The notes beneath the pieces were generated by a model, which saw only the letters and a program-made list of their open reading frames with translations, had not been told where the DNA came from and made no database searches. The position numbers were made by a program, and so were the translations under genes. Shown here one piece after another: positions 351 to 6,550 of a stretch of DNA of 42,574 nt (within the stretch, counting starts at the first letter, position 1; every line of letters begins with the position of its first letter). The DNA comes from Nitrospiraceae bacterium (lineage in GTDB: Bacteria > Nitrospirota > Thermodesulfovibrionia > UBA6902), in the NCBI GenBank assembly GCA_003599025.1, contig QZIL01000115.1, positions 1 to 42,574 of the forward strand, given 5' to 3'.

Positions 351-1337
351 ATGCACCCACTTGAACATTACGTAAGACTGTTCAGCAATTTACGCCGTGC
401 ACCCGGATCTATCTGGCCTGATACAACAAAGAACCAGGCTCCCCATAAACCAATACTGTTATTTTCAGTCCTGGATATGGCTGCCATAGGACAGTTACCT
501 TCAAATTATATAGACATTTCTGGTGATCTGAATGAGTTGAATGATCTTTTTCATACTTATTGGAATAGAGTTGTACCGTCGGGACAGATAAGCAGCATAG
601 CCTTCCCATTTTCACGATTACATAATGAAGGCTTCTGGAAATTAGTGCCTAAACCCGGCAATGCGAAAGACCTCTCCTGGATTTCTAATATCAGTACAGT
701 AAGCCAGCTCCGTGACAGGGCACTTGGTGCAGAAATAGACAAGGATCTTTTCTACTACATGCAGGATGATAAAAACAGAAATATGCTGAGACAGGCCCTC
801 CTGCAGTCGTACTTTTCGGAACAGGCGCAGAGAGAAATTGAGGCACAAACCCGGATAATTACTGAGGCTTATTCTTACAGCCTTGAGTTAATACAGAGAT
901 CGCATGAACCAATAGTTAGCGCTATTGTTGAGACAGATATATACAAACCATTACATGTTCGTGATCAGGGGTTCAGGAGAGCGGTTGTTACAACATATGA
1001 CCATCGCTGTGCATTATGCGGGGTAAGAATGATAACTCCAGAAGGTCACACCGCAGTTGATGCTGCACACATTGTTCCTTGGAGTGAAAGTCATAATGAT
1101 GATATTCGGAATGGGATGGCCTTGTGCAAATTATGCCACTGGACTTTTGACGAGGGGTTTATAGGAGTATCAGAAGGCTATACCGTACTTGTAGCCCATC
1201 AGCTTGCCAGTAAACCGAATATGCCTGGTTTGCTTTACACTCTGCAGGGGCGTTCAATCATTCCTCCGACAGATAAAGATCTGTGGCCGTCACAGGAGTA
1301 TCTTAAGCGGCACCGGCATAAATTTGATCTCTATTAA
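351..1337 (+). CDS. HNH endonuclease with N-terminal sulfur-binding-like domain (candidate type IV restriction enzyme)
   Basis: The 328-residue protein has two recognisable parts. Residues about 25-100 resemble the phosphorothioate-DNA-binding SBD domain of ScoMcrA-type enzymes: an HKPILL segment at 32-37 and the signature IAFPFSRLHNEGFW at 83-96. Residues 217-270 form a zinc-supported HNH nuclease, with CALC (220-223), DAAHIVPW (237-244), Asn254-Gly255 and LCKLCHWTFD (258-267). Known relatives cut DNA carrying phosphorothioate modification, so a role in restricting modified foreign DNA is likely but inferred. The middle (about 110-210) is helical and unassigned. The ATG at 351 has an AAGGATGAGG ribosome-binding site. 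A HIT gene follows 7 nt downstream. No dnd modification genes lie in the window, as expected for a stand-alone modification-dependent enzyme. Confidence 0.82.
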   Translation: MHPLEHYVRLFSNLRRAPGSIWPDTTKNQAPHKPILLFSVLDMAAIGQLPSNYIDISGDLNELNDLFHTYWNRVVPSGQISSIAFPFSRLHNEGFWKLVPKPGNAKDLSWISNISTVSQLRDRALGAEIDKDLFYYMQDDKNRNMLRQALLQSYFSEQAQREIEAQTRIITEAYSYSLELIQRSHEPIVSAIVETDIYKPLHVRDQGFRRAVVTTYDHRCALCGVRMITPEGHTAVDAAHIVPWSESHNDDIRNGMALCKLCHWTFDEGFIGVSEGYTVLVAHQLASKPNMPGLLYTLQGRSIIPPTDKDLWPSQEYLKRHRHKFDLY

Positions 1338-1344
1338 TAAACTT

Positions 1345-1713
1345 ATGAACTGTCCATTTTGTAATATGAGAGACGATGGGATAGTCCTGAAAAATGATCT
1401 TTGTTACGCACGCTATGACAAATATCCAGTTAATAAAGGGCATCTGCTTATTATTACATTCAGGCATTTCGATAATTATTTCGATGCGACTGATGAAGAG
1501 AAGCTCGCCCTCATCAATTTAATAGATAGATCAAAAGTATTTTTATCAGCAAAATTCAATCCTGACGGCTTTAATATCGGCATCAACAGCGGTGAGGCAG
1601 CAGGTCAGACAGTGATGCATTTTCACTGCCACGTTATTCCACGATATACAGGAGATGTCAAGAACCCAAGGGGAGGTGTCAGGGGGGTGGTCCCTCATAA
1701 GATGAATTATTGA
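1345..1713 (+). CDS. HIT-family nucleotide-binding protein
   Basis: The 122-residue protein is a compact histidine-triad hydrolase or transferase. The triad is in HFHCHVIPR, with His92, His94 and His96. The N-terminal CPFC and the segments GHLLIITFRH and FNIGINSGEAAGQTV are typical. Members hydrolyse or transfer nucleoside phosphates, commonly splitting AMP from a phosphoramidate, acyl or dinucleotide substrate; the substrate here is unknown. I chose ATG 1345 because the upstream in-frame codons lie inside the HNH gene and give no family similarity. The start is 7 nt after the HNH stop and has no clear Shine-Dalgarno sequence, so translational coupling is likely. The pairing with a restriction-type nuclease may be functional or only positional. 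Confidence 0.88.
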   Translation: MNCPFCNMRDDGIVLKNDLCYARYDKYPVNKGHLLIITFRHFDNYFDATDEEKLALINLIDRSKVFLSAKFNPDGFNIGINSGEAAGQTVMHFHCHVIPRYTGDVKNPRGGVRGVVPHKMNY

Positions 1714-1764
1714 GAAGTTAAGCTAATACTGGATTAGTTAATTATGCAGGGCCATGAGAACGTC

Positions 1765-2093
1765 TTACTGCTTCAAGATCTTTTTGATCTGTATTCTAAG
1801 CTCAGGAATTTCAGAGGTTATGATATTCCAGATAATATCATAATCAATGCCAAAGTAATCATGGACCAACTTGTCTCTGGTACCGGCCATAGCCCGCCAG
1901 TCAACAGTATCATGTTTTTTCCTGAAATCATCCGGAAGTTTTTTGACAGCTTCTCCAATTATCTCAATACTGCGGACAAAGGCCCTTTTGAGAGTTTCAT
2001 CTTTAGGAATTGTTTTTTACTAAGTCCTTCTGATCTGTTTGTAGTATAGTTTGCTTCATCAAGGATATGCCAGAGGTATTCCTTATAAGACAT
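1765..2093 (-). pseudogene. HepT-like HEPN-domain (DUF86) gene, frameshifted
   Basis: Read on the minus strand, ATG 2093 starts MSYKEYLWHILDEANYTT and continues to QFLK. One base is then missing at the A-run at 2001-2004, and the frame runs into an early stop. In the next frame the rest of the family continues unbroken: DETLKRAFVRSIEIIGEAV and RDKLVHDYFGID, ending with TAA at 1765-1767. Corrected, the protein would be 109 residues, the normal length. RDKLVH is the HEPN RX4-6H RNase motif. In MntA/HepT pairs the HEPN protein is the toxin, silenced by AMPylation by the MNT partner. The start overlaps the end of the MNT gene by 11 nt, the usual arrangement. Either the toxin gene is dead or the base loss is an assembly error in a homopolymer. 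Confidence 0.8.
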
Positions 2094-2388
2094 ATTCGAT
2101 TTCTTTAAGAATATGAGGTTTCAGATAGGGACTCAGGCTTTCAGGCGTTATCAGCTCAACTTTACGATGAAGCAGGTCTTCAAGAAGATAGGCAAGATGG
2201 ATGAAATTTTTAAAATTCTTCTTCCCGCGCATAAACTCAACGATCAGATCAACATCGCTTTCTTTGTTCTGTTTCCCTTTAACGAACGAACCAAAAAGTC
2301 CGATCCGTTTTACGCCGAGTCTTTCTATTTCCTGCCTGTGAGCGAAAAGGATATTTGAGACATCTTTTTTGGTTTGAACAATTTTCAT
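2083..2388 (-). CDS. MntA-like minimal nucleotidyltransferase (antitoxin of a HEPN/MNT pair)
   Basis: This is a small protein of about 101 residues with the pol-beta nucleotidyltransferase signature GSFVKGKQNKESDVDLIVEF: Gly-Ser, then the metal-binding Asp-x-Asp in SDVDL. In the known MntA/HepT systems such proteins AMPylate and inactivate the HEPN RNase toxin. An ATG at 2406 is also in frame. It directly abuts a TATAAT hexamer at 2408-2413, and the AGAGG ribosome-binding site lies between it and ATG 2388, so 2388 is the better start. The 3' end overlaps the frameshifted HEPN gene, so this antitoxin may now be orphaned. The family call is firm; current activity is unknown. Confidence 0.85.
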   Translation of the reverse strand: MKIVQTKKDVSNILFAHRQEIERLGVKRIGLFGSFVKGKQNKESDVDLIVEFMRGKKNFKNFIHLAYLLEDLLHRKVELITPESLSPYLKPHILKEIEYVL

Positions 2389-2407
2389 AGCAGCTGACCT
2401 CTGCATA

Positions 2408-2588: not shown

Positions 2589-3569
2589 TCAGACCCTGTA
2601 ACTCCTTCTCCTTGAATAGCTTGAGATGCAGCCGGTCTGATCGCTTTCATCTACCCTGAAAAATGACGCATGAATAACCTCAAGCTGATGCTCAAGGTTA
2701 GAGCCGACCACCTGTTTCCCATGAAATCTGTAATCCCAACCGTATCCGACGGATTTATGTTTTTCCTCTCTGCAGGCCCTTATCTCATCCATAAATGAAG
2801 CGGCATTGTCACTTTTTTTACCATTGCCGGTTTTTTCCCTTAACAGGATCGCATCCATTGCGTAGCTTTTCACCAGCTTCGGATGGAGGACCTTGTAAGC
2901 CTTTTCATTGGGGATGATATCGAGTCCGGCAACTTTTCCGTTAATAAGGACGAGCAAACCCTGCTGTTGGGGATTATGCGTCAGAGTCTTCAGAAATTCA
3001 TCAAGATCATGTTTTCTTTTCTCATATACGTCCTTCATCGCACCTGTCTGAGAATGGACATCCTCGGTCTCTGACATGGAAGAAATACAATTCCATATTA
3101 CATGCTGGTCGGATTCGTACCGGTCATGCTTCGTTAGTGAGTCTGAGACAGACGCTGACTTGCGGCCCCGGATCATTGAGGAGAGCACCAGGTCGGAATC
3201 ATGGAATTCCCTTGATGCATACTGCCACCGGCCCTGCTCTGTACAACTGACCGGGATTATGGTTTCTGAATGCTCCCGAAGCAGGATAGATGTATTGACT
3301 ATCCTGTTCTGCTTTGCCCCTAGAAGTTCCTCTCCATCAAGGAGGAACACCGGTATATCGGCCTTATTTATGACCTTCAGTTCCGGTACTGATCCGAGCT
3401 CACTTGCCTCGGTCACCGTGATAAGTTGATTCATCAAGGCCTCACTGAGGGTAAGAAATTCAAGGCATTCATTCAGCGGGGAGAAAACAGGCAGTACCGC
3501 CATATTTTTAAACTGCTGCATCCTGCCAAATTTGACTTTTGACAAATAACTGTCTAATGACGAATTCAT
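2589..3569 (-). CDS. ARPP-1 family protein (formerly DUF6569)
   Basis: This 326-residue soluble protein has no signal peptide. Its N-terminal half matches the ARPP-1 pattern: KNMAVLPVFS, LTLSEALMNQLITVTEASE, GSVPELKVINKADIPVFLLD, GEELLGAKQNRIVNTSILL and ETIIPVSCTEQGRW. The family is widespread but its biochemical function is not established. The C-terminal third is basic and Ser/Arg-rich, ending in SYSRRRSYRV. The start is supported by an AAAGGAG site about 8 nt before ATG 3569. The gene lies head-to-tail with the small HExxH protein at 3655-4050, separated by about 85 nt, and may be co-transcribed with it. Confidence 0.8.
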   Translation of the reverse strand: MNSSLDSYLSKVKFGRMQQFKNMAVLPVFSPLNECLEFLTLSEALMNQLITVTEASELGSVPELKVINKADIPVFLLDGEELLGAKQNRIVNTSILLREHSETIIPVSCTEQGRWQYASREFHDSDLVLSSMIRGRKSASVSDSLTKHDRYESDQHVIWNCISSMSETEDVHSQTGAMKDVYEKRKHDLDEFLKTLTHNPQQQGLLVLINGKVAGLDIIPNEKAYKVLHPKLVKSYAMDAILLREKTGNGKKSDNAASFMDEIRACREEKHKSVGYGWDYRFHGKQVVGSNLEHQLEVIHASFFRVDESDQTGCISSYSRRRSYRV

Positions 3570-3654
3570 TTATGACTCCTTTTATCAGGAAATAAATTGT
3601 TAAAATCAGCCATGTCCCCTAACATTATGGAGTTCAACCTCCAAAACCCTTATA

Positions 3655-4050
3655 TCAATGCCTGCTCGACTCACAGGCAGCTTCAATCTTCCTGAAACGG
3701 TTGCCGTGGCCCGCAGATCCTTCCGTGAGGTATTCTATCAGGTGAACACACTCGTGTCTTAAAATACTGAGACCGCGATCATCTTCTTCAGCGCAGGTCT
3801 CGATGTTCATGAGAATTTCCCACCCTTTCTCCGGGCACCACTGTATTCGGCCATGGTAAGGGTAATACCCCTCCCTGACGTACATTGGCCTGAGTATGAT
3901 GCTTTTGGGGAGTTTGACCCTGAAGGGTCGGGCCATCTTTTCGAGCATTGATTTCATTCTGGACTTGTAATACTTAAATAGAACGGCCACCTCGGGATTG
4001 TCTTTGTAACGGCCCTTGATGATGATGTTAATTCCCATGGATTTCTTCAT
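3655..4050 (-). CDS. Small SprT-like HExxH metalloprotease (LRPM zincin A)
   Basis: The protein is about 131 residues long. HECVH (about 99-103) is a zincin active-site motif, followed by GSAGHGNRF (about 112-119), which could supply a third zinc ligand and resembles the SprT/WSS1 layout. An ILRPMYV segment (about 52-58) lies before the active site, and a similar VLRPMKV occurs in the second small zincin at 5512-5898. Peptidase activity is inferred from the motif only. There is no signal peptide or membrane segment, so it is probably cytoplasmic. A TTG at 4059 is also in frame, but ATG 4050 sits better behind AAGGA. It is divergent from the WYL regulator at 4272, with an operator-like palindrome between them. 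Confidence 0.7.
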   Translation of the reverse strand: MKKSMGINIIIKGRYKDNPEVAVLFKYYKSRMKSMLEKMARPFRVKLPKSIILRPMYVREGYYPYHGRIQWCPEKGWEILMNIETCAEEDDRGLSILRHECVHLIEYLTEGSAGHGNRFRKIEAACESSRH

Positions 4051-4212
4051 CTGCTCCAAATTCCTTCCGCTTAATGCTTACATGGATGCGGGGCTGCTTC
4101 ATGCTTCTGTAGCGCCCCCTCTTTAATAATTATCGATGTTGGACCACCATAATATTGTCTTTTTAATGTATGTTAATTCATGACCTCCCCCAGGGGATGT
4201 CCTATATGGTTG

Positions 4213-4234
4213 TTTTACGCGATATCGTGTAAAA
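4213..4234. promoter_or_regulatory. 22-bp near-perfect palindrome, candidate WYL operator
   Basis: The half-sites are TTTTACGCGAT (4213-4223) and ATCGTGTAAAA (4224-4234). All pairs match except 4219/4228. The site ends 37 bp before the WYL-regulator ATG and lies in the divergent spacer with zincin A. Its size and symmetry fit a dimeric HTH regulator, and autoregulation is the simplest reading. The operator role is inferred. Confidence 0.55.
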
Positions 4235-4271
4235 TCTTGTAGAACACTCTCGTAAAGAGGACGGTGGGTTC

Positions 4272-5234
4272 ATGGGCAATAAGGCTATTTACGAAAGATT
4301 CGCGTGGTTTGACAGCAAGGTCAGGGCAGGCAAGCATCCCAATGCCACCATGCTTGCCGGGAAGTTTGAGATATCCGTTAAGACTGCCCAGCGGGATATC
4401 GAGTTCATGAGGGACAGGATCAGATGCCCCCTTGTTTATGATAAAAGCAGAAAGGGCTACTACTACGAAAATGACAGTTTTTCCCTCCCGATAACCTACC
4501 TCTCCGGCGACGAACTCACCATGCTTCTGCTGGCGCGAAAGCTGCTTCAGGACATAAACGGTGAATACATAAAAAACGAACTGTCGGCAATTATGGGAAA
4601 GATCACCGGCATACTTGAAAAGCATATGGAGAAGGCTGATGTCATTGACCAGGCCCTTTCCTTTCAGTTTATTCAATATTCCCCAGTTGAAGAGGAGGTA
4701 TTCAAGAGCATCCTCGAGGCCTGTCTTAAAAGAAACAGCCTGAAGTTCTCCTATTACTCACCTGCCAAAGATGAACACACTGAGAGGATGGTTGACCCTT
4801 ATCATTTATTAAATTATATGGGCACATGGCATCTGATCGCGTATTGCCAGATACGGGGAGATATCAGAGATTTTGTCCTGACGAGAATGAGCAATCTTGA
4901 GCTGACCGACAGCAAGTTCACATTTAAGAAAGACTTCAACCTGAAAGCCTTTCTTCAGGCCTCGTTCGGTATTTACAAAGGCAAACGCACGGAAATGGTG
5001 ACACTGCGGTTTTCACCCAAGCGGTCCCGGTGGATCAAAAACCAGATATGGCAAAAGGACCAGAAAGTACGTATCCTTGATGACGGCTCTCTCGAACTGA
5101 GCTTCCCGGTGGCATCATTTATGGAAATCGAGATGGAGGTATTGAGCCATGGTCACGATGTTGAGGTTATTGCTCCACAGGCATTCAGGGCGTTGATTAA
5201 GGCAGAGGCTGTAAAGATTGCCGGGATTTATTGA
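4272..5234 (+). CDS. HTH-WYL domain transcriptional regulator
   Basis: This 320-residue protein has the usual WYL-regulator layout. An N-terminal HTH spans about residues 5-66, with MLAGKFEISVKTAQRDIEFM as the recognition region and KGYYYEND as the wing end. The WYL domain follows at about 145-225 (SLKFSYYSP, VDPYHLLNYMGTWHLIAYC). The C-terminal WCX region is at about 240-320 (VTLRFSPKRSRWIKNQIW, SHGHDVEVIAP). WYL proteins sense ligands, in some cases nucleic acids, and often control defence or DNA-damage genes. The start has a GAGGA site about 10 nt upstream. The small zincins on both sides (3655-4050 minus and 5512-5898 plus) suggest it controls them and itself; this is inferred from position. 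Confidence 0.88.
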   Translation: MGNKAIYERFAWFDSKVRAGKHPNATMLAGKFEISVKTAQRDIEFMRDRIRCPLVYDKSRKGYYYENDSFSLPITYLSGDELTMLLLARKLLQDINGEYIKNELSAIMGKITGILEKHMEKADVIDQALSFQFIQYSPVEEEVFKSILEACLKRNSLKFSYYSPAKDEHTERMVDPYHLLNYMGTWHLIAYCQIRGDIRDFVLTRMSNLELTDSKFTFKKDFNLKAFLQASFGIYKGKRTEMVTLRFSPKRSRWIKNQIWQKDQKVRILDDGSLELSFPVASFMEIEMEVLSHGHDVEVIAPQAFRALIKAEAVKIAGIY

Positions 5235-5370
5235 ATTGAAATATCTTAAATGTAGGACACTGGTTGGGTTTTTTATGTATATGCAATACATATTGACTGA
5301 AACACCTGTAACCGTCCCCTCTTATACCATCATTTAAATCACGAAGTGCATCAAGCACTCTCTTATCATC

Positions 5371-5410
5371 ATGAAACCCGGTTCTCTTAATTCTCCGGGT
5401 TTCATCTTTT
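5371..5410 (+). terminator. Intrinsic terminator after the WYL gene
   Basis: ATGAAACCCGG (5371-5381) pairs exactly with CCGGGTTTCAT (5395-5405) across a 13-nt loop, followed by CTTTTT. It lies about 140 nt after the WYL stop codon and separates that gene from zincin B. Confidence 0.7.
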
Positions 5411-5511
5411 TCACATAAAAAACATAGGACACAGTATGGGATAGATCGTGTCATATAATAGAACTCATAGAAAAAATCAATTTTAATTGAGAGTGATAGG
5501 GGGGCGCTAAT

Positions 5512-5898
5512 TTGAAAATTAAAATAGTTACAAAGAAAAAAGACCATGAGCAGAAACTTCTCAAACTTGTCCCGTATCAAATCGGTATGATGAAAGCACT
5601 CAGCGAAGAGTACAAGTTCAAAAACCCGCAGGAAGTGGTCCTCCGACCGATGAAGGTAGTCAACCGCCCAACCGAAAGCCACTGCCTGGCATGGGCAGGG
5701 TATAATTTGACAACCGGGTATTACGTCTCAATGATAATGTCGCTATTTAACGCCGGACTTCGCTATGAACTGGACGTCCTGTCCCATGAGATGGCACACA
5801 TAGCTGTATGCCAAAAGCTGAAACGGTGGGGGCATCCGCCACTCCATGAAGAGATGTATAAATTCGCCCATGTATGGGTTAAAAAGAGGGTCAGGTAA
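5512..5898 (+). CDS. Small SprT-like HExxH metalloprotease (LRPM zincin B)
   Basis: This 128-residue protein starts with TTG at 5512 behind a strong AGGGGGG site. The active-site motif is HEMAH (92-96), followed by His108 and His112 in WGHPPLHEEM as possible third zinc ligands. VVLRPMKV (42-49) matches ILRPMYV of zincin A, so the two are probably distant paralogues rather than unrelated peptidases. The layout resembles SprT-like proteins, but no zinc ribbon follows. Protease activity is inferred. There is no export signal. A TATAAT hexamer at 5454-5459 could be its own -10 element, which with the upstream terminator suggests a separate transcript from the WYL gene. Confidence 0.7.
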   Translation: MKIKIVTKKKDHEQKLLKLVPYQIGMMKALSEEYKFKNPQEVVLRPMKVVNRPTESHCLAWAGYNLTTGYYVSMIMSLFNAGLRYELDVLSHEMAHIAVCQKLKRWGHPPLHEEMYKFAHVWVKKRVR

Positions 5899-6051
5899 TG
5901 TTAAGATTCTACCGGATCTGCATTTTATATATCCTTTATCGCTACTTGTTTACTAATCACAATAAGAAATATTTATCAGATTGACACATCCTATTACATT
6001 TCAGTTTGAATTATAAATTATAATACTTAGAGGCCAATGGGGAGGTTTTAA

Positions 6052-6354
6052 TTGTCTAAGATTAATCGCAGGTACAGAGTCATTATTCCGTATAGTGAAC
6101 CGACATTCGTTGCACATAAAGGCATACAGCGGAAAGAGCCATTTCGGGCCGAATATTTTATTACTGCAGGCTCAGCAAAACAGGCCCAGAAAGATGCAAT
6201 CATTCAATTCAAGCAAGATACAACACATGCACATGTAGGATGGGTCCGGATTCCCGACTATAATGGAATTGAGGTGACAGTGGCACCGGAGAAACAAATT
6301 GTAAGTGACCAGCAGGAGATTTATCCCGGACCGGATAGAAGGGAAAAAAACTGA
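6052..6354 (+). CDS. Small uncharacterised protein
   Basis: I do not recognise this 100-residue protein. It starts with TTG at 6052 behind a clear GGGGAGG site, which argues that it is real. It is basic at the N-terminus (MSKINRRYRVIIPYSEP), mixed alpha/beta in composition, and has a hydrophilic Pro/Arg-rich tail (YPGPDRREKN). There are no cysteines, signal peptide or membrane segment. The segment AKQAQKDAIIQFKQDTTHAH looks helical. A bidirectional terminator at 6551-6582 follows. It may belong to the WYL/zincin neighbourhood because of position and strand only. Confidence 0.6.
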   Translation: MSKINRRYRVIIPYSEPTFVAHKGIQRKEPFRAEYFITAGSAKQAQKDAIIQFKQDTTHAHVGWVRIPDYNGIEVTVAPEKQIVSDQQEIYPGPDRREKN

Positions 6355-6550
6355 ATTTGCTCTGAATAATAAATTTCAAACGCTTATTTTAAGATTTCCC
6401 CAGTGAGTATTGGTTCTCTGTAAGCTGGTATTCTTACCATAGTTATACCTCTGAATTGTTGAATCAATGATAGTCTGCAATTTCTACTTTATCTGGTCCA
6501 CATTCGCCTCATTCAAAACATATTCGATGAGGATGGTACATACTGGGTAT

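Follow-up and report, generated by a model that had tools for sequence, protein, structure and literature searches.

A single promoter box, set at a fixed distance from a -10 element, precedes immune genes of several kinds, nearly always in one class of Nitrospirota, lies near genes for a WYL-domain regulator and co-occurs with them across genomes, and is found before seven genes for minimal SprT-like zincins. It may well mark a class-wide antiviral regulon of the Nitrospirota, in which one WYL activator uses one promoter code before unlinked immune systems (CRISPR-Cas, DrmD/Hsp70, ARPP-1 and restriction-modification) and the immune effectors that it induces include SprT-like proteases. WYL control of single defence loci has been published (PMC9122601, PMC9122588, PMC9122589), and the known WYL regulators of immunity mostly act at one locus or island; a promoter code common to several systems would show that the cell can raise them together. 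A literature search, mostly outside subscription journals, found neither a WYL promoter code described as common to several Nitrospirota defence systems nor SprT-like zincins described as defence genes. The box would offer a simple search for new defence genes in the phylum, by looking downstream of it, and nominates the SprT-like zincins, ARPP-1, a TPR protein and Hsp70 as candidate immune effectors.

The window, i.e. the whole 42,574-nucleotide stretch analyzed (contig QZIL01000115.1 of a Nitrospiraceae bacterium), carries two small genes for HExxH proteins, zincin A and zincin B, on either side of the WYL gene (Table 1). This arrangement, with the motifs HECVH and HEMAH, had been described in the initial annotation, and both it and the ARPP-1 and HNH nuclease neighbors named there proved genuine. 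An MNT/HEPN pair had also been proposed; its MNT component stood, and Pfam recognized no HEPN partner in the ORF at 1744-2049 (+), which codes for a 101-aa protein without a family match and is missing from the syntenic locus of genome G044. The ORF at 6052-6354 (+) encodes an orphan 100-aa protein without a relative in any of the loci compared. The HNH protein resembles the NCBIfam phosphorothioate-dependent restriction enzymes, scoring 139 bits where the cutoff is 180. An Rfam scan over positions 3500-6500 gave no match.

Table 1. Genes and promoter boxes of the island around the WYL gene.
Feature	Position	Strand	Remarks
HNH endonuclease	351-1337	+	HNH_2 1.2e-11; same island
HIT-domain protein	1342-1713	+	profile match; syntenic in G044:C184
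MNT-type nucleotidyltransferase	2083-2406	-	PADLOC PDC-S09, 1.4e-34
ARPP-1 domain protein	2589-3569	-	329 bits (Pfam); 85 bp after zincin A, same strand
Zincin A (P0001)	3655-4059	-	134 aa, SprT-like; RHECVH...GHG; starts at TTG, or at an ATG three codons on
Promoter box 1, TAGGACATCCCCTGGGGGAGGTCATGAATTAACAT	4170-4204	-	points at zincin A, beyond it ARPP-1
WYL-WCX regulator (P0003), N-terminal HTH	4272-5234	+	320 aa
NERD-domain helicase remnant	5320-5412	-	formerly divergent from zincin B
Promoter box 2, TAGGACACAGTATGGGATAGATCGTGTCATATAAT	5425-5459	+	points at zincin B; three mismatches, -10 intact
Zincin B (P0002)	5512-5898	+	128 aa, SprT-like relative; TTG start; SHEMAH...GHP

A common promoter element

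Alignment of intergenic DNA yielded a motif that reads toward the zincins, ARPP-1 and the TPR gene, with the consensus TAGGACAY-N4-TGGGGGAGGTC-N6-TANNNT. Box 1 matches this consensus perfectly (PWM score 42.2 bits), while box 2 is degenerate at 27.7 bits, against 44.4 bits for the syntenic site in G044 and 40.3 bits for the G033 site; the PWM scan of the window found no further site above 6 bits, and 425 kb of Markov sequence gave no hit at 20 bits or more. A pattern search run without the -10 part recovered 43 sites with at most one mismatch in 396 genomes of the phylum, nearly all of them within the window's own class, versus about 9 for reversed-pattern controls; among 150 relatives the figures were about 33 and 9. 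Since TANNNT recurs at one and the same offset, exactly seven bases past the GGT, in 34 of the 42 distinct sites, with no other offset holding it in more than 3, we interpret the box as a promoter. With a spacer of 17 bp, the -35 hexamer would coincide with the variable N4. The box has two half-sites, one on each side of the absent -35, and their distance from the -10 is fixed. The consensus contains no inverted repeat of the type seen in BrxR operators. None of 2.9 million viral contigs carried the box, and a search of the window's genome allowing up to three mismatches returned the two window sites and two likely chance sites, versus nine control matches. At G296:C5 (L017/L118), two divergent boxes stand back to back before a zincin, the second without a close gene.

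The genes behind the box include those of several defence systems. The seven boxed zincins come from both clades of the family described below (two in the window, two in G044 and one each in G033, G296 and L052); boxless zincins occur in G373, G326, G099 and Nitrospira. In seven genomes, the box precedes cas3 of type I operons (G077, G109, G298, G339, G353, G373 and G410), and other targets are Cas6 (G060, G339), Hsp70 (G119, G298, G373; 58-68% identical to the G044 Hsp70), ARPP-1 (G044, G054), the TPR protein (G044, G073, G384), the type III modification gene Mod (G373, G410) and a WYL gene (G298), as well as a Cas4-like PD-(D/E)XK nuclease, a DnaQ-like exonuclease and a HIRAN gene. Several of these, for example Cas6, Mod and the cas3 genes of G339, G353, G373 and G410, were named from their translations, without a profile search. 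The box before DrmD scores 20.6 bits in G044, and the site in G033 only 8.4 bits. Because the zincins share their promoter box with antiviral genes, we regard them as members of a common defence switch rather than as a stand-alone pair; the earlier suggestion that placed them among defence genes next to a WYL regulator is supported.

Two further proteins recur in these settings. Four genomes have an Hsp70 with a TPR tail (L011:8759-11149; also L119, L120 and L105; 58-68% identity) behind a box or next to boxed genes, and this Hsp70 is a candidate defence gene. The TPR protein (L010:8073-9083; also L023, L066 and L096; 38-49% identity) is found in four genomes directly after a WYL gene or a box. 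G292 and G012, members of different families, carry an apparently identical boxed locus with a DnaQ-like exonuclease and ORF6N (L070, L081), which reflects either recent transfer or shared contamination.

Association of the box with WYL genes

Among about 37 WYL loci picked regardless of the box, some of which contributed sites to the matrix, 17 have a box within about 1.5 kb, and the fraction is 12 of 16 where the HTH shares 62% identity or more with that of P0003. Across 187 genomes, the WYL HTH was detected in 16 of 27 box-bearing genomes (G033 being counted with a remnant only) versus 24 of 160 boxless ones. WYL-positive genomes average about one box each (0.90, versus 0.08 in WYL-negative genomes; Fisher p=3e-6, Mann-Whitney p=3e-8), and the association is seen within family f17 (p=0.017) and also beyond it (p=0.004), these p-values treating as independent genomes that are not fully so. 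Nine of the ten multi-box genomes are WYL-positive. On the other side, 24 of the 40 WYL-HTH genomes have no box at up to one mismatch, and 11 box-bearing genomes, several about 95-100% complete, lack the WYL HTH; a Pfam WYL search found nothing in most of the latter.

These WYL-negative genomes give some room to a possible, if less probable, reading in which the box is a genuine promoter element of defence genes but is read by a protein other than P0003 (a different transcription factor, or else an alternative sigma factor), the WYL gene being merely a frequent member of the regulon. That the box drives the WYL gene itself in G298, and that elsewhere it often lies just downstream of the WYL gene and drives the next gene, would fit such a reading. 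However, the WYL-negative genomes mostly hold a single box, as relics or recent transfers would, and these boxes may be just that: G012 and G292 carry their identical locus and G033 retains its WYL remnant. Moreover, box frequency tracks similarity to the P0003 HTH, and the canonical -10 speaks against an alternative sigma factor.

P0003 as a predicted activator

P0003 is the probable reader of the box. Its WYL (2.1e-21) and WCX (1.7e-16) domains both score over their cutoffs, with a weak N-terminal HTH_11 match (16.3 bits, cutoff 25). PafBC (1.6e-18) and DriD (1.5e-11) are among its best-scoring solved relatives in the PDB; BrxR covers only residues 136-208 (E=4e-8), a partial rather than a full-length match. 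DriD and PafBC are WYL activators that respond to single-stranded DNA (PMC12340889, PMC11804915). DriD places its DNA-binding domains to either side of a poor -35, with a spacing to the -10 that does not vary, and it turns on the operon that runs divergently from the gene for DriD (PMC12340889); box 1 similarly sits between the WYL gene and the divergent zincin A, at which it is aimed. P0003 is probably a DriD/PafBC-like activator, the zincins belonging to the antiviral regulon that it would control, and we infer that the box is its binding site.

Accordingly framed as a proposal, the mechanism would begin with P0003 sensing nucleic acid derived from infection or damage (the ligand being single-stranded DNA in DriD and PafBC). 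P0003 would then bind the half-sites TAGGACAY and TGGGGGAGGTC, between which the -35 hexamer is missing, and bring sigma70 RNA polymerase to the -10, six bases further along. Depending on the genome, this would turn on type I CRISPR-Cas, DrmD-type helicases, Hsp70, ARPP-1, the TPR protein, type III restriction-modification and the zincins, and the last might cut DNA-bound proteins, either in DNA-protein crosslinks or on phage DNA, by analogy with SprT/SPRTN.

The converse, that P0003 represses box promoters in the manner of BrxR and CapW and frees the defence genes upon ligand binding, draws on the link of BrxR, CapW and Sll7009 to the control of defence loci, BrxR and Sll7009 being repressors (PMC9122601, PMC9122588). 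We consider it unlikely, in that the box offers no -35 element to occlude and lacks the inverted-repeat form of BrxR operators, and P0003 is closer to PafBC and DriD than to BrxR and CapW in the PDB comparison. Activation is preferred because the relatives of P0003 are activators, the box shares the DriD geometry and box 1 is placed as described.

The resemblance to each of these regulators is nevertheless partial. DriD, from Caulobacter, has the HTH-WYL-WCX architecture and a similar length, and its site spans a poor -35 with constant spacing to the -10; like box 1, this site lies between the regulator gene and a divergent operon, which DriD activates (PMC12340889). However, its sequence similarity to P0003 is low, its site (ATACGAC-N7-GTCGTAT) is near-palindromic whereas the box is asymmetric and longer, and its targets are damage genes rather than defence genes. 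The mycobacterial activator PafBC, the closest solved relative by sequence, likewise serves promoters without the usual -35 from a site near the -10 (PMC11804915), but works as a heterodimer and has a -26 motif of its own, whereas P0003 is encoded by a single-WYL gene. BrxR, CapW and Sll7009 share with P0003 the tie to defence loci, CRISPR-Cas included; they mostly serve one locus each, in contrast to a box that is dispersed and common to many systems.

A family of minimal SprT-like zincins

Zincin A passes the Pfam SprT-like profile PF10263 (29.9 bits, cutoff 25.6), while zincin B by itself scores 11.4 bits, under the cutoff; of its relatives, L014 (28.2 bits) and L054 (27.9 bits) pass and L004 (24.8 bits) falls below. 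The H, E and H of HExxH and a downstream third His are invariant in the 11 members compared. In a single direct BLASTP comparison, the two window zincins match weakly (E=0.002, 23% over 84 aa) with the LRPM segment aligned, in keeping with the annotated view that they diverge strongly otherwise. The zincins of G033 and G044:C172 match both and are thus intermediates, and hhalign comparison of separate profiles for the zincin A and zincin B clades gave 99.4% (E=1e-21) in an alignment of 112 columns that keeps both the LRPM segment and the HExxH...H ligands in register. Together, the intermediates and the clade-profile match imply a similarity beyond chance; the LRPM kinship, whose loss in profile comparison had been set beforehand as a refutation, survives. 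Recent tandem duplication was rejected, as the tree places them in two old clades (support 92/95, forks drawn open), each with members in other Nitrospirota. By these sequence criteria they are distant paralogs of one small SprT-like family.

AlphaFold models of zincins A and B are confident (pLDDT 90 and 94); the top Foldseek matches against the PDB are weak and mostly zincins, none significant, and a PDB sequence search with the zincin profile returned nothing usable. Like SprT-like/SPRTN proteins, these zincins combine HExxH with a distal His, and several match Pfam SprT-like; they differ in being minimal (mostly 125-150 aa), with no extra domains recognized and a distinct LRPM segment, and in our analysis they were found in Nitrospirota only. 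Activity on DNA-bound protein is a prediction from the SprT/SPRTN analogy. Searches for close relatives of zincin B in viral contigs and plasmids, and of L014 in plasmids and phages, gave no match. Two distant SprT-like stretches occur in viral contigs (L057, L058).

Decay and variation of the island

Orthologs of P0003 are common across the window's class. The zincin-WYL-zincin order was found in this window only, no other searched contig having the trio, and about 27 other WYL ortholog loci have no zincin within 1.5 kb. G044 has two zincins on separate contigs, each near a WYL gene or WYL remnant. One of these contigs, G044:C184, is syntenic with the window at the DNA level through HNH-HIT-ARPP-1-WYL, with island blocks mostly 81-92% identical (92% at the HNH/HIT junction, 73% around zincin B) and a zincin 65% identical to zincin B. 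It lacks the 544-bp stretch holding zincin A, its WYL gene is degraded, and DrmD and an Hsp70-like gene lie between WYL and the zincin B ortholog, followed by a second Hsp70 gene; the first (L011 6110-7528) was named by reading, its sole Pfam match being a weak one to FtsA. In G033, DrmD is accompanied by a sacsin-like ATPase, and a NERD helicase gene runs divergently from the zincin. A remnant of this helicase, 31-33 aa long, lies just upstream of zincin B in both the window and G044; along 31 aa, the window copy shares 64.5% identity with the intact protein of G033 (DNA 81% over 80 bp). On account of this remnant, the window reads as a partly decayed defence island and not as a compact two-protease system.

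Such decay raises the doubtful alternative that the trio is an accident of gene gain and loss, with zincins and WYL functionally unlinked. Its single occurrence, the missing zincin A at the syntenic locus, the NERD remnant between WYL and zincin B and the degraded WYL gene of G044:C184 all agree with it; against it, the box is kept at the seven zincin genes, two of which (G296, L052) lay outside the motif discovery set. The dedicated two-zincin and WYL module proposed initially, for which the window gene order and the two WYL-associated zincins of G044 might speak, is very improbable given that the trio did not recur. The zincin-WYL link is thus a common promoter box rather than a fixed gene pair.

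In G044 and G033, the zincin has as neighbor an SNF2 helicase that matches PADLOC DrmD of DISARM (2.9e-159 and 1.3e-110, respectively). In contrast to DISARM, DrmD is the only component recognized in these selectively scanned neighborhoods; DrmA, DrmB and DrmC were not noticed in the stretches read, which instead have Hsp70 or the sacsin-like ATPase and NERD helicase. In Nitrospira, a boxless zincin (L054:10001-10384) adjoins a CRISPR-like repeat array and cas-like genes, as read by eye.
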